Virus record (IMG/VR): IMGVR_UViG_3300006802_000136
Location: 1 to 49,721 of that record
Length of the DNA stretch: 49,721 bases
Origin: a virus
Strand: one strand, 5' to 3'
Shown: piece after piece, positions 8,613 to 29,464 of the stretch
Numbering within the stretch: the stretch's first letter is position 1
Layout: each line of letters begins with the position of its first letter
The notes under the pieces: model-generated
The model's database searches: none
The model's input: the letters and a program-made list of their open reading frames with translations, nothing else
What the model was told of the DNA's origin: nothing
Translations under genes and position numbers: made by a program

Positions 8613-9032
8613 TTAAACAACATTATTATAAGTGATTGTGGCACCATTCTCACCATCTTCGCTAACGGTGATAGTGATGTCACGATTGGGATAACGACTA
8701 GCGATTTGCTCATAAAGATCGTCGCTAATCATTTCACAACTCTTGTAATTCAATTCAATAGTGCCTTGGTATAGACTCTCTAACCAACGCTTAAATTGAA
8801 TGAATTCAATATCCCTGTCGTTGTGAAATACTTGGATTGCTACATTAAAATGAAAGATGTGCCTATGCTCGTTTGCCAGAAATGACACATCTGCTAGCCT
8901 AGGATCGTTGGCAGCATCTGGATAACGATGAATACCTTCTTTCTGGAAAGTAACATAAATCATGCGCTTGGCGTGTTCTCGGATCTTATCACGCTTTTCA
9001 GCAAGCGCGGTTTGCCTTTGAATTTCCATCAT
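8613..9032 (-). CDS. T-fold-like protein, possibly QueD-related
   Basis: 139 residues. HRHIFHFNVAIQV recalls the paired zinc histidines and strand of the 6-pyruvoyl-tetrahydropterin/QueD family. ELNYKSCEMISDDLYEQIA followed by ITITVSEDGENGA sits where QueD has PTxENLA and the V-x-ET end. The catalytic cysteine before the His pair is missing, so it may be a non-catalytic or divergent relative. The resemblance is weak and the call tentative; the gene itself is sure (ATGA overlap with its upstream gene). Confidence 0.5.
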   Translation of the reverse strand: MMEIQRQTALAEKRDKIREHAKRMIYVTFQKEGIHRYPDAANDPRLADVSFLANEHRHIFHFNVAIQVFHNDRDIEFIQFKRWLESLYQGTIELNYKSCEMISDDLYEQIASRYPNRDITITVSEDGENGATITYNNVV

Positions 9033-9922
9033 ACTACTCCATCTTTTTTCAATCTAGGAATCAACACTTCGTCAAGCCACTTTCTAGCACCCGTTGGATT
9101 GGGGTGCCATCCATCCGATAGGAAATATTGATCTTTTGATGATCCAAAATGCCAGATTTTATTCCATAAGCTATTATCATGATTTTCAGTATCTATTGGT
9201 CTTAAATGTTCTGTTATTCCCGTAGTTGACACTATAGTATCAAAATCCAATTGCTTATACAAGTAATTTAGGTTTAAGTGATTTTTGTTAATTTCTATAT
9301 CTTCAAACACATAAGACCTATAAAATGTTTGATACAATTTAACATTTTTAAGTTTGCACAAATTTTGTAACATTATGATATTTTCTAGAGTTAGATGAGC
9401 CGGACCTATTAGTGTTTGATAAAGATTAAAATATTGTTTAGCAAATGCATCACAATCATCACCCAATGCTTCAATAGCAGATAAAGCAGAAAAATTCTCT
9501 ATGTACCATCCGCCCCAACTTTTTAATCGGTTATACCTGTCTTTCATATGCCATACTGAATTATTTTTTAAATCCCTCAGTTGGTAGTCCCAATTCCGAC
9601 CATGTCTATCCCAAGAATCAACAAGGTTTTTAATAAAATTTGAAGAATCAACATAAAATGCTTTTCTCTCAGTTCCAGACCACGAAACTATTACAACTAT
9701 TTCTTCTGGTTTGTATTTTTCTAGAGATTCTATCAAAGCCAGGCTAACTTTCTTTTGTATGAGTTCATTGCCCTGACTTCCCAGACCCGTATGTTCAAAT
9801 ATTACATTAGAAGGAAAAAATCTGGTATGTTCTAATACTTCCGGCCAAGTATAACGACCAGGATCCAAACTAAGTTCTGCGAAACTGCAACCGCTGGTTA
9901 TTACCTTTTTAATAGTCATCAA
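9029..9922 (-). CDS. SGNH-like hydrolase family protein
   Basis: 297 residues. The N-terminus, ITSGCSFAELSLDP, carries the Ser block. GLGSQGNELIQKK supplies Gly and Asn of blocks II and III. The C-terminal SDGWHPNPTGARKWLDEV gives the Asp-x-x-His block V, clearest among the four relatives in this window. The function is probably ester hydrolysis on an unknown substrate. It overlaps both neighbours by 4 nt. Confidence 0.75.
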   Translation of the reverse strand: MMTIKKVITSGCSFAELSLDPGRYTWPEVLEHTRFFPSNVIFEHTGLGSQGNELIQKKVSLALIESLEKYKPEEIVVIVSWSGTERKAFYVDSSNFIKNLVDSWDRHGRNWDYQLRDLKNNSVWHMKDRYNRLKSWGGWYIENFSALSAIEALGDDCDAFAKQYFNLYQTLIGPAHLTLENIIMLQNLCKLKNVKLYQTFYRSYVFEDIEINKNHLNLNYLYKQLDFDTIVSTTGITEHLRPIDTENHDNSLWNKIWHFGSSKDQYFLSDGWHPNPTGARKWLDEVLIPRLKKDGVV

Positions 9923-14016: not shown

Positions 14017-16725
14017 CTATCCGAAGTCAAACAAATCATCAAAAGTAGAATTAGTGTTAGTATTCTCTTCTAACTCCCATTCAAGTATTCCCAACAAGTT
14101 GTCGATCTTTTTGTCTACTAGAGTTTGCTCCATTGCTGCATCATCAAAGGGCAAATTGACGAACCATTCGGGAAGTCTGAGTTCGTCAGTTGGGTAGGCT
14201 ATGCTAGTGAAGTTTAATGGATTGGCTCTTAACTTGCATACCACTACTTTCATACCATCTAAGATACGCATAGAATAGTTGTCACCATTTACCTTTCTTA
14301 GATAATTCCAGTTAAGTGCCGCCCTCACATGGCCAGGCATGTTTGCTTTGCCGGTCTTGCTTCGCTTTTCCATATCGTGATATGTAGTTAAATTGTTTAC
14401 AGACTTGGGCGATCCCTTAGTCCAACTATCTACTGTAGAAAGATAGTTCTTGAAGTCTTTGATCTTTTCTATAACTTCTTCCCTAGTCTTACCCGACAAT
14501 ACCATTTCAAGTACTTTCATCAAAAATTCTTGTACATACTTGGGAGTATCTGCTCGTTTGAGATCAAGACCCATTGCTTTAATCTCACCCATTTTACCAT
14601 TAACATCTTTACGCTTACCTTCCTTGTCAAAGATGTTTACAGCATATCTTTTCTTGGTAATGAACAATGCTCTATCACTAACTAGTTCTCTGCCCGCTTT
14701 GATGATTTCACCTTTGTTTCTGGGTACATGAAATGCTCGTTCCATGAAAGCGGGAAAGCCTTTGTTTATCTGCTCTGCGATATTATCGTACAGATTTACT
14801 GCTAAATCTTTACTCCATTGCATAGTACCTTGCTTGACATCTGATTCTATAACGGGCCAAGCAGAAAAATAACAAGAGTCTGTGTCACCATAAACGATAG
14901 CATCACCATAGTAATCATACTTTTCAGTTAATATCTCATTGATATGAGCAGACATATGCTTGACTACTTGCCTACCTGTTAATGTAACACTCTGACCTAT
15001 CCTCTTGTCATAGAATCTACAATGCTCATTGAGTAGCGCACCATACGCAGAGTTAAGCAAAATCTTTCTTACTAACTGACGCTTGTCCCAATATTCTCTG
15101 TCTTGCGCTGTGGTAGAATCACGCAATTTTTTCTGCATATCTTTTCTATCACTATACCATCTAGTAAGCAAACCCGGGATAACACCTTCAGTTTCATAAG
15201 TAAATATAGTACCGTTCGCAGATAAGATATATGGATTACTAGAATCAAATATGAATTTCCATACTTCTGCTCCGCTCATTTCTTTGCTCTCACCGTTTTC
15301 GAAATCTACAGTAAGCATAGTTCCGCGCTCTTGGTTCATCACGGCTTCGTACTCTAGCGAGCCAAACAAACCCTCCCATAACAGAGAACTCATTTCTAGT
15401 TCGTCGCTGCCATCTCTTCTTTTTTTCTTATCTGCTATTCCTTTAGCCTTGTCTAACATATACCTGTCAGTCAATGTTTGCCTGATTTGTCCTATGATAG
15501 TTTCGGGTGCCATATTCAAAGCACGAATAGTGCTAGGATACAGAGAGTTGATGTCTACTGCGCCTACCCATTCATGAATACCTTTCTTAGGTGTCGCTAC
15601 ATATGCTCCCGCAGCAGCCATTTGATCTGATTGCACATCTTTCTTTTTGTCAGGAACTACAAGTCCCCGCTCATGCGCTTCGTTCATAACTGCCATTTCA
15701 ATCATAGCAACTGAACCCATTACAGTTGGCAACAATACTGTGTTCTCATGCGCTAGCGCATTAGCCAGATCAAGGAACTTGAGTTTGTTATGAATCTTTA
15801 CCAAGAGCATAGTATCTTGACGATTGTACTCTAAGAATTTCTTGAAGTCTTTGTTATACAACTGATCAAGAGTACCTTCATACTGCGTTTTGTTTTCACC
15901 TACTTCCATTTCACCGATAGCATCAAGTGAATAACTATGACGCGATTCATAATTATATTTCTTGTATAATTGTAGATAGTCCATATGGATCCTACCTATC
16001 AAATCAAAAGTAGTTTCTTCTTTACCAAATCGCTCGTATGTGCGTGGCTTGGGAAGTTGCCCTAGCAAACAGAATTTGCGTGTATCATCTTTGCTCATTA
16101 CTCTGGTCACGCGATTAACCATATATGGAATATCGTAACCTTCTGAGTTCCAACCTGTCAAAACATCTGCATCTTCAATCACATCAAAGAAAGCATCAAA
16201 CATTTCTTTCTCAGACTTGAACATCAAACAATTTTCGTAGTTGCTTACTATCTCCTTAGCAGTTTCATCAGACATATGCTTTGGGGGAGTACACAAAGTA
16301 ATCAACATATCTTGCCAATCAAGATACAATGATATAGCAGTTACTGGATTGAAAGGATCATTAGTAGGAGAGAACCCTTTTTCAGGATCAAAGTCTACTT
16401 CAATGTCAAAGAAAATCGTATGTAACTCGGGCGGTTCTTGTTTGATATAGTTTTCAGACAAACATCTGAACACTGGATTTATATCGCTTTCGAACAGTTT
16501 TTTACCTGAGTGAATTCTTTTTTCTTTCTCAAACTCTGCTCGTTTCCTAGTAGAGAACCTACTAACAGGATCTCCATAGATAGAACGATACTTGCCTTTT
16601 CTGTCTTGGAAGTAAAAGGTATAATTAGCAGGATATTCATTGTAGATGCGCTTACCCTCAGGTGTGCGTTCTACAACAAATATCCTGTCGCTATCTCTAT
16701 CGTGAATAGCGTCTACATAACTCAT
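14017..16725 (-). CDS. 43: Family B DNA polymerase, T4 gp43-like
   Basis: 902 residues, the same size as T4 gp43 (898). Exonuclease motifs: FFDIEVDFD (D107, E109), LTGWNSEGYDIPY, and YNRQDTMLL. Polymerase motifs: A, GAVDINSLYPSTIRALNM; B, KILLNSAYGALLNE; C, YGDTDSCY. The C-terminus ends in a short acidic/hydrophobic tail (STFDDLFDFG) like the clamp-binding peptide of RB69/T4 polymerases. It both copies and proofreads the phage genome. It abuts the DsbA-like gene (TAATG) and lies upstream of the clamp gene. All catalytic Asp residues are present, so it should be active. Confidence 0.98.
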   Translation of the reverse strand: MSYVDAIHDRDSDRIFVVERTPEGKRIYNEYPANYTFYFQDRKGKYRSIYGDPVSRFSTRKRAEFEKEKRIHSGKKLFESDINPVFRCLSENYIKQEPPELHTIFFDIEVDFDPEKGFSPTNDPFNPVTAISLYLDWQDMLITLCTPPKHMSDETAKEIVSNYENCLMFKSEKEMFDAFFDVIEDADVLTGWNSEGYDIPYMVNRVTRVMSKDDTRKFCLLGQLPKPRTYERFGKEETTFDLIGRIHMDYLQLYKKYNYESRHSYSLDAIGEMEVGENKTQYEGTLDQLYNKDFKKFLEYNRQDTMLLVKIHNKLKFLDLANALAHENTVLLPTVMGSVAMIEMAVMNEAHERGLVVPDKKKDVQSDQMAAAGAYVATPKKGIHEWVGAVDINSLYPSTIRALNMAPETIIGQIRQTLTDRYMLDKAKGIADKKKRRDGSDELEMSSLLWEGLFGSLEYEAVMNQERGTMLTVDFENGESKEMSGAEVWKFIFDSSNPYILSANGTIFTYETEGVIPGLLTRWYSDRKDMQKKLRDSTTAQDREYWDKRQLVRKILLNSAYGALLNEHCRFYDKRIGQSVTLTGRQVVKHMSAHINEILTEKYDYYGDAIVYGDTDSCYFSAWPVIESDVKQGTMQWSKDLAVNLYDNIAEQINKGFPAFMERAFHVPRNKGEIIKAGRELVSDRALFITKKRYAVNIFDKEGKRKDVNGKMGEIKAMGLDLKRADTPKYVQEFLMKVLEMVLSGKTREEVIEKIKDFKNYLSTVDSWTKGSPKSVNNLTTYHDMEKRSKTGKANMPGHVRAALNWNYLRKVNGDNYSMRILDGMKVVVCKLRANPLNFTSIAYPTDELRLPEWFVNLPFDDAAMEQTLVDKKIDNLLGILEWELEENTNTNSTFDDLFDFG

Positions 16726-17682: not shown

Positions 17683-18144
17683 TTATTTGCGTTTTTCGGA
17701 AAGAAAGTTTTTCCAATCATCAGCAACAGAATCTTCAAATATAGTAGGATTGGCTTCACCATAAATTTTGATGTATTTACCTGCTAGAACATCAGCCATT
17801 ACTTCTATTGGACTTCCGGGATAACTATCGCCGGGTTTAATCATATCTAACTCATGCTGTCTGACATGGACTAATTCGTGAAAAACAGTACGCATCATAT
17901 CAACTAAATTTCTATTTTTAGCATAGCACCATATATGGTCGCTGCCCGGCATATAACCACCCGTATGATGATTACCTTGTGCTTCTTCTGTGTCTAGGCT
18001 TAATTTAACTACGGGTAAATTCTTAACTTTAAGTATCTTACCTGCCCACTGAGCAAAATTATTGATGCGTTCGGCTCTGGGATCGTCAGACGGTACTTCT
18101 GGATCCTCTTTTAACATGAAACCTTTTAATTCTTTTGCTCTCAT
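17683..18144 (-). CDS. Zinc metallopeptidase-like, probable internal head protein
   Basis: 153 residues. HELVHVRQHELD (near 89-100) is an HExxH zinc site, and SPIEVMADVLAGKY supplies a likely third ligand Glu or Asp. The length and fold class are like small phage or toxin-type metallopeptidases. The N-terminus, MRAKELKGFMLKE, ends in L-x-E, fitting cleavage by a T4-type prohead protease. No ribosome binding site is visible; the ATAAATA core ends 5 nt before the ATG. Packaging in the head is inference. Confidence 0.75.
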   Translation of the reverse strand: MRAKELKGFMLKEDPEVPSDDPRAERINNFAQWAGKILKVKNLPVVKLSLDTEEAQGNHHTGGYMPGSDHIWCYAKNRNLVDMMRTVFHELVHVRQHELDMIKPGDSYPGSPIEVMADVLAGKYIKIYGEANPTIFEDSVADDWKNFLSEKRK

Positions 18145-18334: not shown

Positions 18335-18523
18335 TTATTTTAATTCTCTGATTGAACCTATTCTAGCAGAATCAACGTTATATAAACGTTTCATTAATTC
18401 TCTAGCCATGAAATGATTTTGAGCAGTAACAGTTAGATCCATATTGCCTGTATAGCCAGGTTGTTTCACGAAAACTGTGGCTATATAAACTTTATGTGGT
18501 TTTACTACGTCTGCTACTTTCAT
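18335..18523 (-). CDS. Small hypothetical protein
   Basis: 62 residues beginning MKVADVVKPHKVYIATVFVK and ending in IGSIRELK. Beta-rich first half, helix, then strand; it looks like a small alpha/beta domain (MDLTVTAQNHFMARELMKR). Not recognised. The ATG at 18523 overlaps the upstream TAA (TAATG). Confidence 0.7.
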   Translation of the reverse strand: MKVADVVKPHKVYIATVFVKQPGYTGNMDLTVTAQNHFMARELMKRLYNVDSARIGSIRELK

Positions 18524-18858
18524 TACGTGTAAATGCTTTTTGGAGCCTTAGGAGCAGAGAATTCTTCTGCTGCTTTAACAAACGCTTCAAAACTCTGACC
18601 GGCTTCATGTTGCATTCTCTCGCGGTCAGCGGGCTTGTACTTAATGTATTTCATTAAGAACTTCTTGATCAGTTCCATTGGAATCTTCTTTTGAGTTCCA
18701 TCTCTGAATTTAACTGGATAGTTTCCTTCTACGTCAATTGACTTGCGTAGTTGAGTAACGATGTGCGGTACGTTATCCTTATCCGGATCTTCTGGTTTTT
18801 CTTCTTCATCGTCCCAGTCGTCGTGCTTGGTCTCAAATAGAATTTCTTGAATTTTCAT
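18523..18858 (-). CDS. Hypothetical protein with targeting-like N-terminus
   Basis: 111 residues. MKIQEILFE ends in L-x-E and is followed by a very acidic stretch (KHDDWDDEEEKPEDPDKD). A basic helical domain follows (FRDGTQKKIPMELIKKFLMK). The N-terminus fits the capsid-targeting pattern seen in nearby genes, so it may be a packaged protein. The function of the helical part is unknown. AAAGG before the ATG and a late core 23 nt upstream suggest its own late promoter. Confidence 0.7.
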   Translation of the reverse strand: MKIQEILFETKHDDWDDEEEKPEDPDKDNVPHIVTQLRKSIDVEGNYPVKFRDGTQKKIPMELIKKFLMKYIKYKPADRERMQHEAGQSFEAFVKAAEEFSAPKAPKSIYT

Positions 18859-18881
18859 GTTAAGTATACCTTTCTATATAG

Positions 18882-18888
18882 TATTTAT
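18882..18888 (-). promoter_or_regulatory. Late promoter core (T4-like)
   Basis: The minus strand reads GTGATAAATACTATA, an ATAAATA core 23 nt before the ATG of the 18523-18858 gene. The predicted leader contains AAAGG. GATAAATACT is the form repeated at 29434, 32064 and 36328. Confidence 0.6.
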
Positions 18889-19703
18889 CACATTTTCTTA
18901 AAGATCGGACCCGATATAAAACTTCTCTCGCCTTCATTCCAGAGTCCATTGTTCCATGACTTTATCCATTCATCAGTTATGTGCCTATTTCTTTTATATC
19001 TAGGAAATAAATGTACTTCAACGGGATCATCTCCTTCTACTCGGCGTATGGCTAGCATACGATTTCTACCTTCGTGACCTGTGACTATCGCTGGTTTTTC
19101 GAAATCGTTATTATCCCATTCTTCTGGGACATTGATATTTAAAAATGGTGAACCTAATGCCCCACCTTTTTTCATGTGATCTACAATGTGATCTACACTG
19201 ATGGGAGATTCCAGTGGTGCTGCTAGTTTTAAAAATACACTGGGCTTCATTAGTACTCTTAAACCAAAATAATCAACCTCGGCGTTGTTAGGCACCTTTC
19301 CTAGACCGTTTTGGTTATCAACATTATATTCGTTAATGCCGGTCTTGGGATAGCGAATCATTGTTTCCATAGTAGTAAAATCTTTATTTCTACCCTTGTT
19401 AGGCACGAACCCAAATCTTTTATAGAATTTAACTAATTTTGTTTTACTACCGCCGAAATCACTTGATGGTGATAGTGCGATTTTTTGACCTGTTTGATCG
19501 GCATAATTAACTAATGCTTTCATTGCTTTAGTGCCAGTGCCCTGTTTTCTGTCAGATTTGGGAACTACGATCTGACTCAAATATATAGTACCATTTCGTT
19601 CATACAATGAATGTTCAATACCCATTGAAGACCACTGATCTTCGATTTCTTCTATAGATTCATTGATGATTTTACGTTCCGTTATAAATTCATGAGATTT
19701 CAT
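18888..19703 (-). CDS. GNAT acetyltransferase fused to a ParB/Srx-like domain, probable internal head protein
   Basis: 271 residues. The N-terminal peptide MKSHEFITE is nearly the T4 IPIII capsid-targeting peptide (MKTYQEFIAE as I recall it). Residues about 40-120 are a GNAT fold: LSQIVVPKSDRKQGTGTKAM is motif A (acetyl-CoA loop) and FYKRFGFVPN is motif B. Residues about 140-271 form a second domain with VTGHEGRNRMLAIRRVEGDD, like the ExRxR block of ParB/sulfiredoxin-type domains. It may modify host targets after injection; packaging and target are inference. No ribosome binding site is visible at the ATG. Confidence 0.78.
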   Translation of the reverse strand: MKSHEFITERKIINESIEEIEDQWSSMGIEHSLYERNGTIYLSQIVVPKSDRKQGTGTKAMKALVNYADQTGQKIALSPSSDFGGSKTKLVKFYKRFGFVPNKGRNKDFTTMETMIRYPKTGINEYNVDNQNGLGKVPNNAEVDYFGLRVLMKPSVFLKLAAPLESPISVDHIVDHMKKGGALGSPFLNINVPEEWDNNDFEKPAIVTGHEGRNRMLAIRRVEGDDPVEVHLFPRYKRNRHITDEWIKSWNNGLWNEGERSFISGPIFKKM

Positions 19704-19728: not shown

Positions 19729-20367
19729 TTATACGGACCACGGATCAGTAATAACAAGTTCACCGTTGCTTCGCATCATGACATTTTCAGTATGAAGATC
19801 CCAAGACAAGCCCAATTGTTTGCCCTTATCATATAATTTTAGCATAGTCTTGTACAAAATGCTATAGTAGTTCAATTTGTCTTCACCCACTTTCTTGAGT
19901 TTATCAACTATCTTTTTACCGTTTTCACCTACATAAGAATCAGGATCATGTAGCTTCTTTAGTGTACTAGACCAATCTTTGCCATATTTAACTAGATCAG
20001 AAAGTATCCATACTACATATTCATCAATACTATTCTGTGGAATATGTTTAAGTTTTTCCATATTGAATTGAGCGAAGGGAACATTACCTACACTAAACTC
20101 TAAATAAGGTTCACCATCAACCTCAAAGAATTTAGGTAAAGTAGGAAGATCACTTTTCGTACATATTTTATAAAATGCTATCTGTGCTTTTATGATTTTG
20201 TCTGTGCTGTCTGTATTTGGAAATATTATTTTACTGATCTGTCCCTCATCTTTACTCCACACTTGAGCATCATATCCCTGACCTATAAATTTATAGCCTG
20301 CTTTTTTAAGAGACTTAACTATAAATTGTTGAATCTTGTCATTGTCCGAAACTTCACATATTAGCAT
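19729..20367 (-). CDS. Protein-kinase-fold protein 1
   Basis: 212 residues. GQGYDAQVWSKDEGQISKII is a glycine-rich loop followed by the ATP-binding Lys; SWDLHTENVMM is the catalytic loop (D...N) and VITDPWSV stands for DFG at the C-terminus. It is short for a kinase and lacks a normal C-lobe after DPW, like the three relatives at 22160-24388. The N-terminus MLICE fits the I-x-E cleavage pattern. It could be a phosphotransferase injected with the DNA; substrate unknown. Confidence 0.78.
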   Translation of the reverse strand: MLICEVSDNDKIQQFIVKSLKKAGYKFIGQGYDAQVWSKDEGQISKIIFPNTDSTDKIIKAQIAFYKICTKSDLPTLPKFFEVDGEPYLEFSVGNVPFAQFNMEKLKHIPQNSIDEYVVWILSDLVKYGKDWSSTLKKLHDPDSYVGENGKKIVDKLKKVGEDKLNYYSILYKTMLKLYDKGKQLGLSWDLHTENVMMRSNGELVITDPWSV

Positions 20368-21035
20368 TATTTTACACCTATCTTCATAAATCTGCTATAT
20401 GCAGTTTCAGGATCTTTGAATTTCTTGCAGCCTAAATAATTAGTTTTACGCATGGGAAAAGTATTAGCAAATCTATCTAAATTATCGAATCTAGTTGATG
20501 AATTAGAATTGTCTCTTCCTTGAACTATTATTACGAAATTGTCTGGTACGTTGTCATACCAATCTGTAGACATATCGTTAACACTAGTATTGATAATAAT
20601 ACCCGGTTCATCATATACAACGTCTTTAGCATCTGTATGAATGAATTTTAATTTATCTGAGTCTATGTAAGACTTTAGTAATTTCTCACCACCAAACAAT
20701 ACTTTGTCATCTTTATCAATTAACACTATATCATCAAATACTATACCTGCTTTTTGTAAAAGTATCGCTAAATTACCATACCAACTACCTACTATATAGA
20801 TAGTTCTAGCACAATTATTACCTAATTCTTTTTTTAATTTATTGGCTAGCCAACATTTACTAAGTATTAGGTCGCGAGTAAAACTACCTTCTAATGTATC
20901 AGGACTGGCTTCGTTTACTTTTTTTTTACGGCCTTGGCAATGGGCGCGTTGGCTGAATCCTTTAGGATTGTTACAGTTGATGCTGCGCTTGTATTTCGCA
21001 CTCCATTTTTCTGTTATGAACTCGCTGGCTTTCAT
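20367..21035 (-). CDS. Methyltransferase-like protein with capsid-targeting-like N-terminus
   Basis: 222 residues. MKASEFITE matches the T4-type targeting peptide and cleavage site. It is followed by a basic Cys-containing module, KYKRSINCNNPKGFSQRAHC, then QGRKKK, which I know from other marine phage proteins. The rest looks like a Rossmann methyltransferase: IYIVGSWYGNLAILLQKAGI (SAM loop), DIVLIDKDD (acidic strand end), and IIINTSVNDM in the motif IV position. The substrate is unknown. The ATG gives a TAATG-type junction with the kinase-like gene downstream. Confidence 0.72.
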   Translation of the reverse strand: MKASEFITEKWSAKYKRSINCNNPKGFSQRAHCQGRKKKVNEASPDTLEGSFTRDLILSKCWLANKLKKELGNNCARTIYIVGSWYGNLAILLQKAGIVFDDIVLIDKDDKVLFGGEKLLKSYIDSDKLKFIHTDAKDVVYDEPGIIINTSVNDMSTDWYDNVPDNFVIIVQGRDNSNSSTRFDNLDRFANTFPMRKTNYLGCKKFKDPETAYSRFMKIGVK

Positions 21036-21048
21036 TATTAGAAATTAC

Positions 21049-21489
21049 TTAGGATCGTTCTCTTTTTAATATAGATTTCAGCATCCAAGCATGTTTAGCA
21101 TGAGCATCTAGTCTTTCTGCTATGAAATTTTCTATACCAAACTCTCTTTCTTGTCCTGCTACTTCAAAGCAATTTTTGAGAACTTCAATCAATTTCTGAT
21201 TATCATCTAGTATTTCTTGAAACATCAATTCTGCGCGGGGTATTTTTGTTTGTCCTTGAATAACAGACAGTTCTGCATATCTTTCAAAACTGCCAGGAGT
21301 ATAAGAATCTAGTGTTCTTATATACTCTGCTATTTTGTCTAGAACACCATAAACTTCTGCGTATAAGTCACCAAAGAACTCATGATATTGAGGAAAATCA
21401 GGACCTTCTACGTTCCAGTGAAAATTCTGCGCTTTGATAACAAACGCATACGATGTTGCTAATAATACTTTTAAATTCTCTGATAACAT
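21049..21489 (-). CDS. dps: Dps-like ferritin
   Basis: 146 residues, four-helix bundle. KAQNFHWNVEGPDFPQYHEF carries the ferroxidase His; FFGDLYAEVYGVLDKIAEYI supplies the Asp and Glu ligands in the usual spacing. Dps proteins form 12-mer shells that oxidise and store iron and bind DNA. The N-terminus is short (MLSENLK) and lacks the Lys-rich DNA-binding tail of E. coli Dps; LSE fits the [I/L]-x-E pattern of its neighbours. A strong AGGTGA ribosome binding site and a late core precede it. In a virion it might protect DNA from oxidation; this is inference. Confidence 0.92.
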   Translation of the reverse strand: MLSENLKVLLATSYAFVIKAQNFHWNVEGPDFPQYHEFFGDLYAEVYGVLDKIAEYIRTLDSYTPGSFERYAELSVIQGQTKIPRAELMFQEILDDNQKLIEVLKNCFEVAGQEREFGIENFIAERLDAHAKHAWMLKSILKRERS

Positions 21490-21514
21490 AAATCACCTAT
21501 TAATGTAACTTATG

Positions 21515-21521
21515 TATTTAT
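21515..21521 (-). promoter_or_regulatory. Late promoter core upstream of dps
   Basis: The minus strand reads AAGATAAATACAT, 25 nt before the dps ATG with AGGTGA between. It fits a T4-type late promoter giving dps and the genes after it. Confidence 0.6.
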
Positions 21522-22126
21522 CTTTTAATGTTTAGTTCTTGCTCTATATCTTTTATTAGCCTAGAAGAAAATTCTCTATGAGCTTCATATCCTAAATGTC
21601 CATCTGGTAAGGTAGGAAAAGAAAATTTTAGTCCCGGTCTTAAATCCTTGAAAAATTTTTCACCATACATCGCACAATCTTCATAATAAAGACTATTATA
21701 TAGATTGCAATGTAACTGCAACTTAACTTTGTCTTTTAAATAGTGCTTGATAAATTCTTTGTAAAGATTAGCATTAAATTCTTCATCAAATTTATCGCTA
21801 TAATTTTTATACCAGTTTTTTGTAAATTCATCTTCTGAAGATGGATAAAAACTCATAATATCGTGATAACTGTCTCCCTTTATTATACAAGTTCTGCTTA
21901 TTTCTGGATACATGATAACAACAATATCATCTTTATCGAAAGAAAAATCATATACTTTCTTTGCTATGTACTTAATACTACCGCCCGGCTCTCCTAGATT
22001 GAAACATTCTATACCTAATCTTTTTGCAACTAAAAAAGGCCAAACATATTTAGATCCTACTCGATATTCATAATCAGGAAATCCCTGACCAGCAGTATAA
22101 CTACATCCAAACCCTATTAATCTCAT
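21518..22126 (-). CDS. SGNH-like hydrolase family protein
   Basis: 202 residues. MRLIGFGCSYTAGQGFPD carries the Ser block, NLGEPGGSIKYIAK fits blocks II-III, and LPDGHLGYEAHREF gives the Asp-x-His block near the end. It is the shortest of four relatives in this window. It has no [I/L]-x-E N-terminus although it lies among genes that do. No ribosome binding site is visible before the ATG; the ATAAATA core ends 5 nt upstream. Confidence 0.72.
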   Translation of the reverse strand: MRLIGFGCSYTAGQGFPDYEYRVGSKYVWPFLVAKRLGIECFNLGEPGGSIKYIAKKVYDFSFDKDDIVVIMYPEISRTCIIKGDSYHDIMSFYPSSEDEFTKNWYKNYSDKFDEEFNANLYKEFIKHYLKDKVKLQLHCNLYNSLYYEDCAMYGEKFFKDLRPGLKFSFPTLPDGHLGYEAHREFSSRLIKDIEQELNIKR

Positions 22127-22131
22127 AAATT

Positions 22132-22138
22132 TATTTAT
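22132..22138 (-). promoter_or_regulatory. Late-promoter-like core, close type
   Basis: The minus strand reads ATCATAAATAAATTTATG; the core ends 5 nt before the ATG at 22126. No purine-rich ribosome binding site is present. Confidence 0.45.
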
Positions 22139-22159
22139 GATAAGAATTGTTGACTATTT

Positions 22160-22876
22160 TTAACTAGACCATTCGAATTCTGGCATCCAGGGATCTGATA
22201 TAACGTAAGTTCCGTCACTTCTCTTCATCCAATTGTTACCATCTTCTAAATCTACTTCTAATGATCCGCCGCTCTTTTCAGCAACTTTAATAAGTTTAGC
22301 CATAATGCTAACAAATGGTTCGAAATCTTTTTTGAATTCTGGCCAATTATCGACGTATTTTAGCCAACGTTGATCTCCTATACCTTCTTTACTAGCCAGC
22401 CATTTAAAACTTCTACCATCATTTTCATTATGATCTTCAAAGAAATCTTTTATTGAACCATCACCATGAGCATATTCTAAGAATTCTAATAATACTTCTT
22501 TTTCAATAAAACTAGTGATTTCTTTTAAAGGTTCCATCTCATATAATATTATATCAACTCCGGCTACTTTGTCTTTTTTAGTTTTGAAAAATCGAGGTAG
22601 ATGGGGATTATTTTTATTTTTCTCAATAAATTTTAAAAATTTTCCTGTTACTGCTTCTGACTTATCCATTTCTTTTTTATAGAAGTTGGGATCTTTTTCA
22701 CGTCCATCTGTTTCTGTAGCATGAACCTTGATTACTTTTTGTTTATCAGGACTAATAAAAACCATAGCGTAACCACCCTGCCCGGCTAACTTCCATCCTT
22801 TCTTAGTCATGTGTTCTTTTATTAAAGACCTAAAGTTTTTATTAGTTGGTTTTTGTTGTTTAATTTCATCTAACAT
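22160..22876 (-). CDS. Protein-kinase-fold protein 2
   Basis: 238 residues. GWKLAGQGGYAMVFISPDKQ then KVIKV gives the glycine loop and ATP Lys. VDLEDGNNWMKRSDG keeps the catalytic-loop D and N at the usual spacing but has Glu where the relatives have His. VISDPWMPEF replaces DFG. The N-terminus MLDE fits L-x-E. It is one of three adjacent kinase-like genes, probably from tandem duplication. The His-to-Glu change may weaken or change activity. Confidence 0.75.
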   Translation of the reverse strand: MLDEIKQQKPTNKNFRSLIKEHMTKKGWKLAGQGGYAMVFISPDKQKVIKVHATETDGREKDPNFYKKEMDKSEAVTGKFLKFIEKNKNNPHLPRFFKTKKDKVAGVDIILYEMEPLKEITSFIEKEVLLEFLEYAHGDGSIKDFFEDHNENDGRSFKWLASKEGIGDQRWLKYVDNWPEFKKDFEPFVSIMAKLIKVAEKSGGSLEVDLEDGNNWMKRSDGTYVISDPWMPEFEWSS

Positions 22877-22880
22877 AAAT

Positions 22881-23594
22881 TTATCCCATTGCCGGCATCC
22901 ATGGATCAGTTATAACAAGTGTATCTCCCCTCATCATCATATTAGCCGAATGAAGATCCAGATCACTCATTGCTGGCATCGATTTCACCATCTTAAATAC
23001 AATGTTATAAAAAGGTGTATATTTTTTTATAAATTCCATTTCATTCTTTGGGTGTCCTGGTTTGTCCTTGAGTTTTATACCCCATCGGCGCCACACTTTA
23101 CGCAATTGTTTTTCACGATTTGCTATGGTTGCACCTATATATGGGTTGGCTGCTTCAACTAAGTCTTCAGCCAAATATTCTAATTCCTGAGGTAAACGAG
23201 TCAGTACTTCCATTTCATACATAACTATCTTAACTTTACTTTTTCTATCTGTTACTGTTTCAGTTTTAGTTTTAAAAAATTTAGGTAAATGAGGACTTTT
23301 TTTGTTCTTGTCGATAAATTTTAACCATGCACCTTGTAGCCGCTCTGATTCTTGTTTTTCATATGTATAAGGTTCATCTTGATCAACAGGCCCCGCTGCG
23401 GGTTGAGAACCCCATAAAAATTCAGGATCAGGTGCTATTACTTTGATTACTTTTTTCTTATCGGGACTAGTGAAAACCACAGCGAATGCTCCCTCACCAA
23501 TCAACTTCCATTTCTTGGCTTTCATATGTGCTATGATTTTTTTTCTAAGAGTGTATCTTGTTAATGCTTCTTTTATATTCATATTCATATTCAT
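22881..23594 (-). CDS. Protein-kinase-fold protein 3
   Basis: 237 residues. KWKLIGEGAFAVVFTSPDKK then KVIKVIA is the N-lobe glycine loop and Lys. LDLHSANMMMRGD is the catalytic loop and LVITDPWMP the metal-binding loop. The first residues MNMNMNIKEA contain I-K-E before Ala, a good prohead-protease-type site. The alternating Met-Asn start comes from a short ATTCAT repeat in the DNA. It is closest to the neighbours on both sides. Confidence 0.78.
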   Translation of the reverse strand: MNMNMNIKEALTRYTLRKKIIAHMKAKKWKLIGEGAFAVVFTSPDKKKVIKVIAPDPEFLWGSQPAAGPVDQDEPYTYEKQESERLQGAWLKFIDKNKKSPHLPKFFKTKTETVTDRKSKVKIVMYEMEVLTRLPQELEYLAEDLVEAANPYIGATIANREKQLRKVWRRWGIKLKDKPGHPKNEMEFIKKYTPFYNIVFKMVKSMPAMSDLDLHSANMMMRGDTLVITDPWMPAMG

Positions 23595-24388
23595 GAGAAT
23601 GCCCAGGGATCTATAATTACTATAGTACCGTCTTCTCTCTGCATGAAATTTCCAGAATGAAGATCGTTATAAAAGTTATATTGGTCACCAACTTCAACAA
23701 CCTTTTCTAATGCTTTTATCAGTCCTCCATATTTATTTATAAATTTTTCTTTATCAAGTGGATCCTTTACTACCTTTTGGTATCTCTCCCATATGTTGTC
23801 ATATAAATTTCCTTCTTTTGGCGATTCAAAGTATCTACCTATAATGGTTATCGGAAACGGATCGTCTATGCGTGTAAGTAATTCCATTTCAAATAATTCT
23901 ATTTTTATTTCTATATTTCCTTCTTTTATTATTTCAACTTTAGATTTATAGAATTTAGGATAATGAATATTAGGATTTTTCGCTACAAAAGATTGCCACT
24001 TGTATTGTGCGAACTCTGACTTAGATTTTAATGATTTTGCTAAATCAGTAGCGGGACCTTCAGGTGCTATTATTTTAATTACTTTGTTTTTTTCAGGGTT
24101 GATAAATGCTACTGCAAATGATCCCTGACCAAGGAAAACCCATTTCTTTTTTCGCATGTGAGCTATAACTTTTGCTCTAATGTCGTAATTTGGTCTATTG
24201 TTTTCAGGTTCTTCTTCATTCAAAGAAGGTTGTTCTGGTGGTGCTTGAGCAGCCTTAGCCTGCGATTCCCATTCCTTATTTTGTTGAGAAATTCCCTTGT
24301 CAGTTGGTTGTACTTGCACAGGGGTAACCTGCGCAGGAGTAACTTGTGCTGGAGTAATTTTTGCAGGTTCGAATTCTAAAATGATCAT
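23591..24388 (-). CDS. Protein-kinase-fold protein 4 with proline/threonine linker
   Basis: 265 residues. After MIILE comes a low-complexity linker with four AQVTP-like repeats (residues about 9-30), then a Gln/Glu-rich stretch. The kinase fold begins at KWVFLGQGSFAVAFINPEKN with KVIKIIA. NDLHSGNFMQRED is the catalytic loop and IVIIDPWAFS the end. The repeat linker is unique among the four relatives and may be a flexible tether. It overlaps kinase 3 and the DUF6356-like gene by 4 nt each. Confidence 0.78.
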   Translation of the reverse strand: MIILEFEPAKITPAQVTPAQVTPVQVQPTDKGISQQNKEWESQAKAAQAPPEQPSLNEEEPENNRPNYDIRAKVIAHMRKKKWVFLGQGSFAVAFINPEKNKVIKIIAPEGPATDLAKSLKSKSEFAQYKWQSFVAKNPNIHYPKFYKSKVEIIKEGNIEIKIELFEMELLTRIDDPFPITIIGRYFESPKEGNLYDNIWERYQKVVKDPLDKEKFINKYGGLIKALEKVVEVGDQYNFYNDLHSGNFMQREDGTIVIIDPWAFS

Positions 24389-24537
24389 GACGATTTCTTC
24401 TTATCAGTCATTTCAGAAGTAACTTTATATTCCCATACATTGGGAAATATTCCATGCACAAACAATATCAATGCCCAACGCCAGGCTCTGTATAAATGAG
24501 CGAAATAATTTACATGATTATCGTGTAAATGTTTCAT
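24385..24537 (-). CDS. DUF6356-like 50-residue membrane-associated protein
   Basis: A short gene starting MKHLHDNHVNYFAHLYRAWR, then WALILFVHGIFPNVWEY and a Lys/Ser tail. The HL..N...YF.HL..A pattern followed by a hydrophobic helix with HGIFP matches the small DUF6356 family as I know it. The ATG overlaps the TAA of the gene upstream (TAATG) and its TGA overlaps the next ATG (ATGA), so it is a real gene between two larger ones. The role is unknown. Confidence 0.82.
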   Translation of the reverse strand: MKHLHDNHVNYFAHLYRAWRWALILFVHGIFPNVWEYKVTSEMTDKKKSS

Positions 24538-24587
24538 TAAGCCCTCGTTTTTAGTATTCCACGTAGGATGTTACTCTTTGTACTCTC
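24537..24587. repeat. 51-bp direct repeat, copy 1
   Basis: Encodes the shared C-terminal tag and stop of protein A. It is identical to 25302-25352 except for one base (24543 C versus 25308 T). Sequence outside the repeat differs strongly, which suggests gene conversion or recombination at the 3' ends. Confidence 0.9.
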
Positions 24588-25292
24588 TGAGAACCCCTTA
24601 GTAACCCCCCTAGCCGCACGGTGGCTAGCGTTAGTTAAGTCCCACGCGAGCGGCGCCGCAGACAAGGGGTTACTAAACCGCGGGTCCACTGGACCGTATA
24701 AATCTCGCAGCGGATCCGATTTGGAGAGAAAATCACCTAACTTGCTTGCACCATAAGCAGTCACACCTGTCTTTGTTGAGCTCCATAATGCAGAACGAAT
24801 ATCCTTACCCTGCAATGCCTGATCTACCAACTTAAATAAACCTAAAACTACAGCACCACCTAATCCTGAGCCAGAAATACCTACTGCCGCAATAAGTGTG
24901 GCATATAATATTTCTTGTAAAACAGGATGTTTTTCTGCAAGGTCACGGTACTTCTGAACATACTTCATTGCACCTTGGTCGTCACCAGTTGCTTTTTTTA
25001 ATTTTTCTGCAGCCGAATCATAAGCACTAGCAAAATTGGTCATTGGACCACTATTATAAATTTTGCCCTTTAAATTTTTCCATGCTTTATTTACAGCATT
25101 GGCAGCATCTTTGACTTTACCTTCCATAGTAAGGTTGCTGCCCGCATTAGCAAACAATTCATTGATCTGGTCGGCAGTAAGTTGCGCTTCCATGATCTTA
25201 TGACCGGCATTTTCCCACAACTTGTAGGTTACTTGTTCTATAATCATACGATCATTGTCGGTTTTTGTAATACTGTGTAATATTCTGCTCAT
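24537..25292 (-). CDS. Hydrophobic internal-head-type protein A
   Basis: 251 residues. The N-terminal third is helical and holds KIMEAQLTADQINELF, with I-M-E before Ala. Two hydrophobic segments follow (ILYATLIAAVGISGSGLGGA, then VVLGLFKLVDQAL). The last 15 residues, STKSNILRGILKTRA, are identical to those of the 25302-27080 product. Both proteins share the order motif, hydrophobic pair, Gly-rich region and tag, so they are paralogs. The hydrophobic pair could insert in a membrane during injection; this is inference. Confidence 0.72.
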   Translation of the reverse strand: MSRILHSITKTDNDRMIIEQVTYKLWENAGHKIMEAQLTADQINELFANAGSNLTMEGKVKDAANAVNKAWKNLKGKIYNSGPMTNFASAYDSAAEKLKKATGDDQGAMKYVQKYRDLAEKHPVLQEILYATLIAAVGISGSGLGGAVVLGLFKLVDQALQGKDIRSALWSSTKTGVTAYGASKLGDFLSKSDPLRDLYGPVDPRFSNPLSAAPLAWDLTNASHRAARGVTKGFSESTKSNILRGILKTRA

Positions 25293-25301
25293 TTTTATCT
25301 C

Positions 25302-25352
25302 TTAAGCTCTCGTTTTTAGTATTCCACGTAGGATGTTACTCTTTGTACTCTC
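25302..25352. repeat. 51-bp direct repeat, copy 2
   Basis: Encodes the C-terminal tag and stop of protein B, 765 bp from copy 1 with one mismatch. Confidence 0.9.
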
Positions 25353-27080
25353 ATTTACTAGTTCTAATGGATCTGGTTGTAATTGCATCCAGTCTGGAGC
25401 CTGTGGTGCTTTATTTTTACTTGGTATTGTTCCTGGTTTAGTGCCAGTCTTGCGTAGTCCAGGTGTAGCATAATTACCAGGATTTCTCTTTTTATCTTTT
25501 TGTTTTTTAGATAAAGGTCCCACCATTGGCTGTTCTGGTGCATTTTGTTGTACGCCTGCTAGAGGATTAAATGCGAAAGTACCACCTTGCGTTCTAGTAC
25601 CAGCAACCGGTGCTGCTCCCTGATTTGGTCTTCTCATCTGTCCTGCTACGCTGTTAGTATTTCTGTCAACTTGCGGTCTATTATTTCCGCCGGCTGCTGG
25701 CTGCGCTCCCTGCTGCGCTCCCTGCTGCGCTCCCTGCTGCGCTCCCTGCTGTAAAGGTATATTCATCTGATCGAAAGATTGTTGCATCACATTTTGTGGT
25801 ATTCCATTAGAGGCTAACATAAATGCTATTTGATTACTATCTGTTGGGCTACCTGCTTTCTTCCACATAGACATTAATTTGTCTGCTGTTACTTTCGTAG
25901 TTAGATTTGCAGCCTTTTTCCCAGCCCATTGCCAACCTTTAGCCATACCCGACTTCATTGAATCCCATGCACTTAAAGTACTTTCAAATAGTTCTCTGAC
26001 TTGTGCTTCTGTAAGATTAACAGATTCTTGAACAGGTTGTGCTGTCTGTGAATTTTGTTGTACTGGATTACCGCTTTGGTTCACCGCTTGACCTTTAGAA
26101 TCTATAGCAGTTGCTCCTGCTGCTGCGCCCTGGGCTGCTGCTGCTAATCCTCCGAAAACGTTATTAATGGTTCTAGCATATTTGAAAGCACCGTCTATGT
26201 CCGCAGTTCTTGTGTAATATTCACCTAGTTCTTTCGCCCGATCCCAGAAGTCAAACGCTTTCGTATAATTTCCACTCTCAAAGGCACGAACTCCTTTAGA
26301 GAATATATCTCCTACTTCGTTAACTTGTTCCTGAGTACCTACTACCGTCGCCGACTCCCCGCCGGACAGTTTAAGATTGGTATAATAATAATCACCTTCT
26401 AATGGTTTAGGATTAAAATAATTTTCTAAACCGGATGCAAGTTTTCCTAGTTGTTGTATTGTTTTACCCGCCAACCAACCATAAGCAGCAGTCTTTAGAC
26501 CTTTTCCAATTGCTGTTGACAATTTTTCTCCCTTCATTAACTCAACTGAGCCACGAAGTATTTGACCAGCGACAAAACCTCCCGCTGGACCTCCTGCTAA
26601 AGATGCTAAGGTTGTTAATATACCTATAACTGCTGCTGTTTTACCTGGATTTTCTTTAGCCCAATTACCCAATGCTGTTAGATTGTTGGCTAAGTTTGGA
26701 AATTTTTCACTTGCTTTTCCTTTTAAATCTTCAAACTTTTGATCGAACGCTTTTACGGGAGTAGTATCTTGCAACCATTTACCTACTTTATTAATAGTAC
26801 TGTCTACTACTTTTGCTGTATCTACGCCTTTACCTAATAAAGTACGATTGTCGCCACCAGCAGTAGCATTTTGTTGCACAGTTTGAAATAACTGTTCTAT
26901 TTGTTGAGCAGTTAATGTTGCTTCAATTAATGGACGGAACTCATTATAAATTCCTTCTACTATTCTTTTTTGATTTCTGTCTAATCCTTGGCAAGACTCA
27001 ATCAAAATTCTGTTATTATCTCTTTTCATTCTTTCTAATAACAATAGTGAGTCTGCGACACTTAATCTTGTTGTTTTCAT
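25302..27080 (-). CDS. Hydrophobic internal-head-type protein B
   Basis: 592 residues, not a named family. Residues 50-70 hold LIEATLTAQQIEQLF and the middle holds VNLTEAQVRELFESTLSAW, two more copies of the [I/L]-x-E-A motif found in protein A. A hydrophobic pair lies near 150-185 (TAAVIGILTTLASLAGGPAG). The centre has a TPR-like piece (FESGNYTKAFDFWDRAKELG). A GAQQ repeat and a Pro/Gln-rich linker precede the C-terminal tag STKSNILRGILKTRA. A good ribosome binding site (AAAGGAT) lies upstream. Packaging and injection are inferred. Confidence 0.75.
   Translation of the reverse strand: MKTTRLSVADSLLLLERMKRDNNRILIESCQGLDRNQKRIVEGIYNEFRPLIEATLTAQQIEQLFQTVQQNATAGGDNRTLLGKGVDTAKVVDSTINKVGKWLQDTTPVKAFDQKFEDLKGKASEKFPNLANNLTALGNWAKENPGKTAAVIGILTTLASLAGGPAGGFVAGQILRGSVELMKGEKLSTAIGKGLKTAAYGWLAGKTIQQLGKLASGLENYFNPKPLEGDYYYTNLKLSGGESATVVGTQEQVNEVGDIFSKGVRAFESGNYTKAFDFWDRAKELGEYYTRTADIDGAFKYARTINNVFGGLAAAAQGAAAGATAIDSKGQAVNQSGNPVQQNSQTAQPVQESVNLTEAQVRELFESTLSAWDSMKSGMAKGWQWAGKKAANLTTKVTADKLMSMWKKAGSPTDSNQIAFMLASNGIPQNVMQQSFDQMNIPLQQGAQQGAQQGAQQGAQPAAGGNNRPQVDRNTNSVAGQMRRPNQGAAPVAGTRTQGGTFAFNPLAGVQQNAPEQPMVGPLSKKQKDKKRNPGNYATPGLRKTGTKPGTIPSKNKAPQAPDWMQLQPDPLELVNESTKSNILRGILKTRA
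25692..25752. repeat. 12-bp tandem repeat coding GAQQ
   Basis: Four to five head-to-tail copies of TGCTGCGCTCCC (plus strand) inside protein B, giving repeated Gly-Ala-Gln-Gln. A flexible linker that can change length by slippage. Confidence 0.85.
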
Positions 27081-29410: not shown

Positions 29411-29433
29411 AAATAGATTCCTTAGTTATTAAG

Positions 29434-29440
29434 TATTTAT
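29434..29440 (-). promoter_or_regulatory. Late promoter core (T4-like)
   Basis: The minus strand reads TAAGATAAATACTTAATAAC, 23 nt before the ATG at 29410 with AAGGAA between. It lies just after the terminator hairpin, so it starts a new transcription unit of internal head genes. Confidence 0.65.
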
Positions 29441-29464
29441 CTTAATTCCTATTATCAGGCTACA

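Follow-up and report, generated by a model that had tools for sequence, protein, structure and literature searches.

Four minimal T7 gp0.7-type kinases in a jumbo-phage locus, possibly made late and carried in the virion

Why should a phage keep four small kinase-like genes in one locus, and when in the infection would it use them? The genes in question, which we call K1 to K4, are carried by the IMG/VR virus record IMGVR_UViG_3300006802_000136, positions 1 to 49,721; this whole stretch of 49,721 nucleotides is the window in what follows. The answer that we prefer, and to which we would give a probability of about 0.58, is that they encode kinases of the T7 gp0.7 type that are made late, packaged into the virion and injected to take over the host or to counter its defences, K1 being the resident copy and K2 to K4 the outcome of a triplication. 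Family membership, the predicted fold, the retention of catalytic residues, the tandem origin, late-promoter motifs and the enrichment of leaders in the family were computed here.

All four are intact, co-directional open reading frames (ORFs) on the minus strand, with no frame damage. K4 (23591..24388, 265 residues) begins with about 60 residues rich in Pro, Gln and Thr, followed by a kinase domain that ends in IIDPWAFS. K3 (22881..23594, 237 residues) ends in ITDPWMPAMG, K2 (22160..22876, 238 residues, loop DLEDGN) in ISDPWMPEFEWSS and K1 (19729..20367, 212 residues, loop DLHTEN) in ITDPWSV. K4, K3 and K2 are contiguous, with a 4-base overlap between the first two and a 4-base gap between the last two; K1 lies about 1.8 kb further on, beyond genes that we call GCSYT, Dps and ROSS. 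Each of the four matches PHROG 15752, the profile of the T7 gp0.7 protein kinase, with E-values of 7.5e-6 (K2), 9.2e-8 (K4), 9.5e-11 (K1) and 1.2e-11 (K3); K4 also matches phrog_3809 (E 2.5e-8). In the reverse direction, a profile made from 40 family members retrieves T7 gp0.7 at E 1.5e-6.

In the alignment of these 40 sequences, no substitution is seen at G31, E104, L106, D190, N195, V205, D208 and P209 (K1 numbering); K46, H192 and others are conserved to 90% or more. The glycine loop, the beta-3 Lys, the catalytic Asp, the Asn and the metal-binding Asp are kept in K1 to K4, as is DPW, after which the chains stop within 2-8 residues. A first-pass annotation had described four kinase-fold ORFs, three of them adjacent, with a glycine loop with Lys and a terminal DPW, and all of this holds. 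It had also remarked on a C-lobe cut short compared with protein kinases. The C-lobe is indeed absent, but T7 gp0.7 reads FDMHSGN...ITDPV and has no C-lobe after it either, so that both the DPW ending and the short C-lobe are family traits. No Pfam kinase model matched the window kinases above its cut-off, and Pfam and PADLOC searches with them gave no useful result. On these data K1 to K4 can be described as minimal T7 gp0.7-type kinases, an N-lobe plus a short catalytic segment without the usual C-lobe, with a predicted activity whose chemistry we extrapolate from the T7 kinase (T7PK) and JSS1_004.

AlphaFold2 models of K1 and K3, built on the family alignment, are confident (pLDDT 92.8 and pTM 0.88 for K1; 88.4 and 0.86 for K3). 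Among viral models searched with Foldseek, K1 is most similar to uncharacterised phage proteins (best TM-score 0.78), with further matches to T7-like protein kinases (IME278, SK1, fPS-53) and to proteins of the jumbo phages RaK2 and CBB. Its matches among solved structures are APH(2''), PERK and PknB, of which APH(2'') is best (E about 3e-5). Their TM-scores, like those of K3, are low (0.3-0.4), as expected with one lobe missing. The first-pass annotation had proposed comparison with HipA, APH and Fam20-type kinases. A kinase fold is predicted and APH did appear; HipA and Fam20 were rejected as closest folds, not being among the matches listed for K1 and K3.

Could K1 to K4 then be APH-type enzymes that phosphorylate small molecules and not proteins? 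Besides its structural match, K1 has an APH as its best PDB sequence match (E 0.009), and the catalytic loop D-L-H-x-x-N is one that we take to resemble the APH pattern. However, the substrate pocket of these enzymes needs the C-lobe, and K1 ends at DPW both in sequence and in the model, with no counterpart of the lobe that holds the antibiotic. Sequence and fold are also nearer to T7-type kinases with proven protein substrates, and K3 matches PKR best in the PDB (E 9e-4), with GCN2 as well. We consider the APH alternative very unlikely.

K2 raises another question. Its loop, DLEDGN, has Glu in place of the near-invariant His, as had been remarked at first pass, where K1, K3 and K4 read DLHxxN. 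Duplicated enzymes often diverge to inactive copies, and some of the four, chiefly K2, might be pseudo-kinases, binding nucleotide or host proteins with no catalysis of their own and serving as decoys or as regulators of the other copies. Yet none of the four has lost the Lys, the catalytic Asp, the Asn or the metal Asp, and the reading frames are undamaged. The activity of K2 is probably altered; that it or another copy is a pseudo-kinase of this kind seems to us rather improbable. The copies share 26-40% identity and all keep the catalytic Asp-Asn-Asp, which is compatible with the earlier suggestion of several targets or a divided labour.

How did the four genes come together? Viral contigs were scanned with the four-kinase alignment, which gave 48 related loci (here numbered with L), and an iterative search gave 70 candidate kinase ORFs, with E-values that refer, for the hidden Markov model used, to a small sequence set. 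Because a handful of these match only the tail module of the model and not the kinase domain (for example L025 8606-8944, L036 8608-9282 and L043 8469-10781), the true kinase count is somewhat below 70. Only sequences with the catalytic motif entered alignment A2 and the tree, to which EVB91_002 of phage RHph_I1_18 was added by hand. A large subset of the loci shares one gene order: a nucleotidyltransferase, o292, o658, a basic protein, a large S gene, Dps, variable genes including the kinase, a metallopeptidase, a PP-loop gene, a polymerase and a clamp-like gene. K1 is the resident kinase of this conserved locus in many related uncultured phages, and in the tree it groups with L007 and L008 (support 100/99). 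K2, K3 and K4 cluster in a single clade (99/98) that does not include K1. In L007, L008, L110 and L114 only 130-320 bases separate the S gene from Dps, and the GCSYT gene is missing there; in the window the gap is 3 kb and is filled by K4, K3, K2 and GCSYT. From the single clade and the gap that is empty in syntenic relatives, the best reading of K2 to K4, with the GCSYT gene, is that of a lineage-specific insertion with tandem triplication, separate from K1. The word paralogs, used for all four at first pass, is thus apt for K2 to K4, and the four are not one local expansion.

The tree has other tandem sets: three kinases of one clade in L052, two in L054 and two in RHph_I1_18. With four, the window has the most among the 35 contigs searched. 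A scan of viral contigs for closer relatives of K2 to K4 as a set found none, and a scan of bacterial and archaeal genomes with the A1 patterns found no family members; both depend on conserved short words and can miss. Fusion partners of the kinases in relatives include Pol-beta nucleotidyltransferase, GGACT, ParB, ASCH, deaminase and amidoligase domains. We also saw the kinase domain inside long multidomain proteins (L042 3114-8375, L044 6459-9056, L047 6735-9080 and L114 3057-4841), with nucleotidyltransferase, amidoligase, cytidine deaminase, ParB and P-loop kinase-like domains.

When would these genes be expressed? The T4 late promoter is TATAAATA followed by ACT. Its exact core, TATAAATA, is not enriched in the window and is rarer than chance (2 sites, 6.8 expected). 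The similar GATAAATACT occurs four times against 0.21 expected, a number reached in none of 100 shuffles, and a fifth site lacks only its last base; GATAAATACT seems to be this lineage's own form of the late promoter. Sites of the shorter GATAAATAC lie at 18881, 21514, 29433, 32063 and 36327, and over all loci 27 of 36 [GT]ATAAATAC sites are at most 60 nt upstream of a gene start. In the window such sites stand 23-25 nt ahead of o658, Dps and the 18523 gene, all on the minus strand. The GATAAATACT at 29432..29441 stands 23 nt ahead of the gene that opens the operon reaching K4-K3-K2, the GATAAATAC at 21514..21522 is 25 nt before Dps and heads Dps-ROSS-K1, and the GATAAATACT at 18880..18889 is 23 nt before the gene 18523-18858. 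Judged from these positions, the operons that contain the four kinases seem to be late ones. In T7, by contrast, gp0.7 is expressed early (PMC4858673); the first-pass statement that T7 carries one injected or early kinase is therefore right as to early and wrong as to injected. Late motifs where the T7 gene is early, taken together with the leaders described below, are our main argument for packaging.

In T4, internal proteins enter the prohead by a short N-terminal leader that is cut after L/I-x-E; like Alt, they are carried in the virion and injected (PMC9026906). An N-terminal leader is found in a third to a half of the kinase relatives and also in neighbouring genes. With gene sets that are mechanical ORF choices, MRASEFITE-type starts are present on 10 of 32 kinase-set ORFs and, among the remaining genes of these loci, on 55 of 371 (representatives at 50% identity). 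Shuffled starts gave 0.2-0.4%, and four stretches of jumbo phages taken as controls gave 0 of 199 genes. The pattern counted, M[RK]xx[EDQ][FILV]..E, was written after inspection of the relatives' starts, only its L/I-x-E core coming from the literature; both controls protect against chance matches, though not against this choice of pattern. Leader frequency falls with distance from the kinase, from 27% beside it to 0 beyond 7.5 kb (redundancy unreduced). The remark at first pass that the kinases lie close to capsid-targeting-like starts has in this way been put into numbers. In L008, L051 and L110 the kinase in the position of K1 begins with MRSxEF..EKW and a basic module, SINCNNPKGFSQRAHCQGRKKK, and the ROSS protein upstream starts with MRIRDLTNEASP. 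In the window it is ROSS that bears the leader module, with the junction at VNEASP, and K1 is without the leader of its orthologues.

This arrangement suggests an alternative, namely that the kinases are late but stay unpackaged and act in the producing cell, on virion assembly, lysis timing or superinfecting phages. It would account for late-promoter motifs ahead of K1 to K4 that have no full leader, and for the bare start of K1. The strong leaders of the same-position orthologues in L008, L051 and L110, the leaders on neighbours in the same operon and the minimal L/I-x-E still present in each window kinase speak against it, and we hold it to be unlikely, though not negligible.

Several points weigh against packaging and injection of active kinases, and they should be stated together. 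A full leader is present on none of the four window kinases. L/I-x-E does occur within residues 2-9 of all four, against 7 of 44 other window genes, but the match is short and the position limit was set after looking, for which reason the four shuffle frequencies were not multiplied to a p-value; as a packaging hint it is suggestive only, also in K3, where NIKE followed by A fits the L/I-x-E cleavage motif of T4 gp21. The leader pattern is also on many non-kinase genes, and as a regular expression it misses the exact T4 ipI-ipIII starts (MKTYQEFIAE), ipI itself having no L/I-x-E. K2 has lost its catalytic-loop His. Searches for gp21 and gp23 (PF03420, PF07068, phrog_207, phrog_138) found neither in the kinase-bearing viral contigs tested, which are fragments. 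Finally, neither virion proteomics nor a kinase assay is known to us for these proteins.

What kind of head would the kinases enter? The nearest counterparts of the window DNA polymerase (14017-16725) belong to Phosso, Atu_ph07, Vibrio phage 2.275 and GAP32, which have genomes of 349-490 kb and carry T4-type prohead protease genes; the window phage is on this evidence probably a jumbo phage of the T4 superfamily. No head genes were identified in the 49.7-kb fragment. In the syntenic 337-kb contig L116, a gp21-type prohead protease (E 2e-57) lies about 135 kb from the locus, and because of this distance we read the missing gp21 and gp23 as a matter of fragment length, not absence. A gp21-type prohead protease is present in all five related jumbo phages searched. 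The genome of RHph_I1_18, which has a named bacterial host, contains gp21, gp23 and an adjacent kinase pair, and would permit a direct packaging test. A family-profile search detected no kinase in Atu_ph07, Phosso, GAP32 or Vibrio 2.275; a phrog_15752 search in these four plus CBB and RaK2 was negative too, apart from one marginal place in GAP32 (E 0.04), despite the RaK2 and CBB proteins among the fold matches of K1.

If our preferred reading, packaging followed by injection, is correct, the following course can be imagined. K1 to K4 would be part of a modular cassette of late effectors in a T4-superfamily jumbo phage. Produced late, they would enter the prohead as internal proteins, in most relatives through an N-terminal capsid-targeting leader trimmed after L/I-x-E by a gp21-type protease. 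We infer this delivery by analogy with T4 Alt and the internal proteins. Injected along with the phage DNA, the kinases would phosphorylate host proteins, for example RNA polymerase, RNases or defence nucleases, ahead of any phage gene expression, and the triplication of K2 to K4 would broaden or shift the range of targets. A wider proposal, about which we are more hesitant, is that T4-superfamily jumbo phages keep an exchangeable set of effectors, made late and packaged in the head, whose resident catalytic module is the T7-type kinase, and that the four enzymes here act on separate targets at DNA entry.

The neighbouring genes, also on the minus strand, deserve a brief description. ROSS (20367..21035) has the leader MKASEFITE, the SINCNNPKGFSQRAHCQGRKKK module and a body that looks Rossmann-like by eye, and overlaps K1 by one base. 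The gene at 18888..19703 combines a leader, MKSHEFITE, with a GNAT domain (Pfam E 1e-4) and a DYFGLR module, and the latter is fused to kinases in L015, L016, L031, L032 and L035. A small protein (18523..18858) has a capsid-targeting-like start, MKIQEILFE. Another (17683..18144) is metallopeptidase-like (HELVHVRQHE, a motif found by eye; Pfam marginal) and is a neighbour in 27 related loci. The Dps/ferritin-like gene (21049..21489; PF00210, E 3e-24) is a constant neighbour in 24. GCSYT (21518..22126) is SGNH-like by eye, and [FS]GCS[FY] stands near the start of three window genes (233-1057, 9029-9922 and 21518-22126). The basic module SINCNNPKGFSQRAHCQGRKKK, of about 25 residues, is found in 55 distinct proteins, at the N-terminus, at the C-terminus, internally or almost alone; they include the window protein 20367-21035 (residues 1-39) and proteins of L008, L023, L028, L110, L157, L187 and others. 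Possibly it serves these phages as a common tag for internal proteins of the virion. Two adjacent and different proteins (24537-25292 and 25302-27080) share their last 16 residues, ESTKSNILRGILKTRA, as a terminal tag. Between 20000 and 24000, the kinase stretch, the G+C content is 31-33%, against 36-41% in the flanks. Beside the kinases of RHph_I1_18, EVB91_003 (L001 1866-2567) has a leader-like start and by eye the look of an ADP-ribosyltransferase (LYRG...); searches of Pfam and PHROGs with it gave no meaningful match. It follows directly on the neighbouring kinase-family proteins EVB91_001 and EVB91_002, and near the N-termini of EVB91_002 and EVB91_003 one reads IAE|S and LNE|S, respectively.

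We know several systems with which this locus can be compared. Among the proteins phosphorylated by the T7 kinase and JSS1_004 are RNase III, RNA polymerase and complexes for defence such as DndFGH (PMC4858673; PMC12345140). With them the window kinases share PHROG 15752, a truncated domain ending in DP-x, the glycine loop, the Lys and D-[LM]-H-x-x-N (K2 with Glu for His). They differ in having no C-terminal basic host-shutoff domain, in standing behind late-promoter motifs where those genes are early, and in being several to a locus. Such a kinase has been described as almost exclusive to Autographiviridae (PMC12345140), to which those phages belong, whereas the window phage falls with the T4-superfamily jumbo phages. 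Kinase-PolyVal (PF18762), of polyvalent injected proteins, has likewise lost the C-terminal kinase subdomain, and the Pol-beta nucleotidyltransferase, GNAT and ParB domains fused in relatives partly overlap the make-up of polyvalent proteins (PMC5512222). That family is described as carrying an insertion that separates the catalytic His from the Asp (PMC5512222); PF18762 finds nothing in the window, even with E-values up to 10 allowed, and touches the relatives L014 and L017 weakly, below the cut-off (E 1e-3 to 5e-4). APH(2'') resembles the window kinases in its N-lobe fold (Foldseek E about 3e-5) and D-L-H-x-x-N-type loop, and differs from them in that they have no C-lobe, hence no aminoglycoside pocket, with sequence similarity only at E 0.009.

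T4 Alt and IPI-IPIII offer the likeness in route: late synthesis, a short N-terminal leader, gp21-type trimming after L/I-x-E and injection, all as proposed for the kinases. The cargo would be a kinase instead of an ADP-ribosyltransferase or a small basic protein, and the leader is related to theirs, not identical. The repeated tandem duplications and the shuffling of domains may reflect an arms race over the targets of these kinases. Recent work reports that kinases of the T7 type disarm several bacterial defence systems; in T7 itself, however, the kinase gene has to be transcribed and translated before this can happen. A kinase carried in the virion, if this is what K1 to K4 are, would act without that delay and would be the phosphorylation counterpart of T4 Alt.

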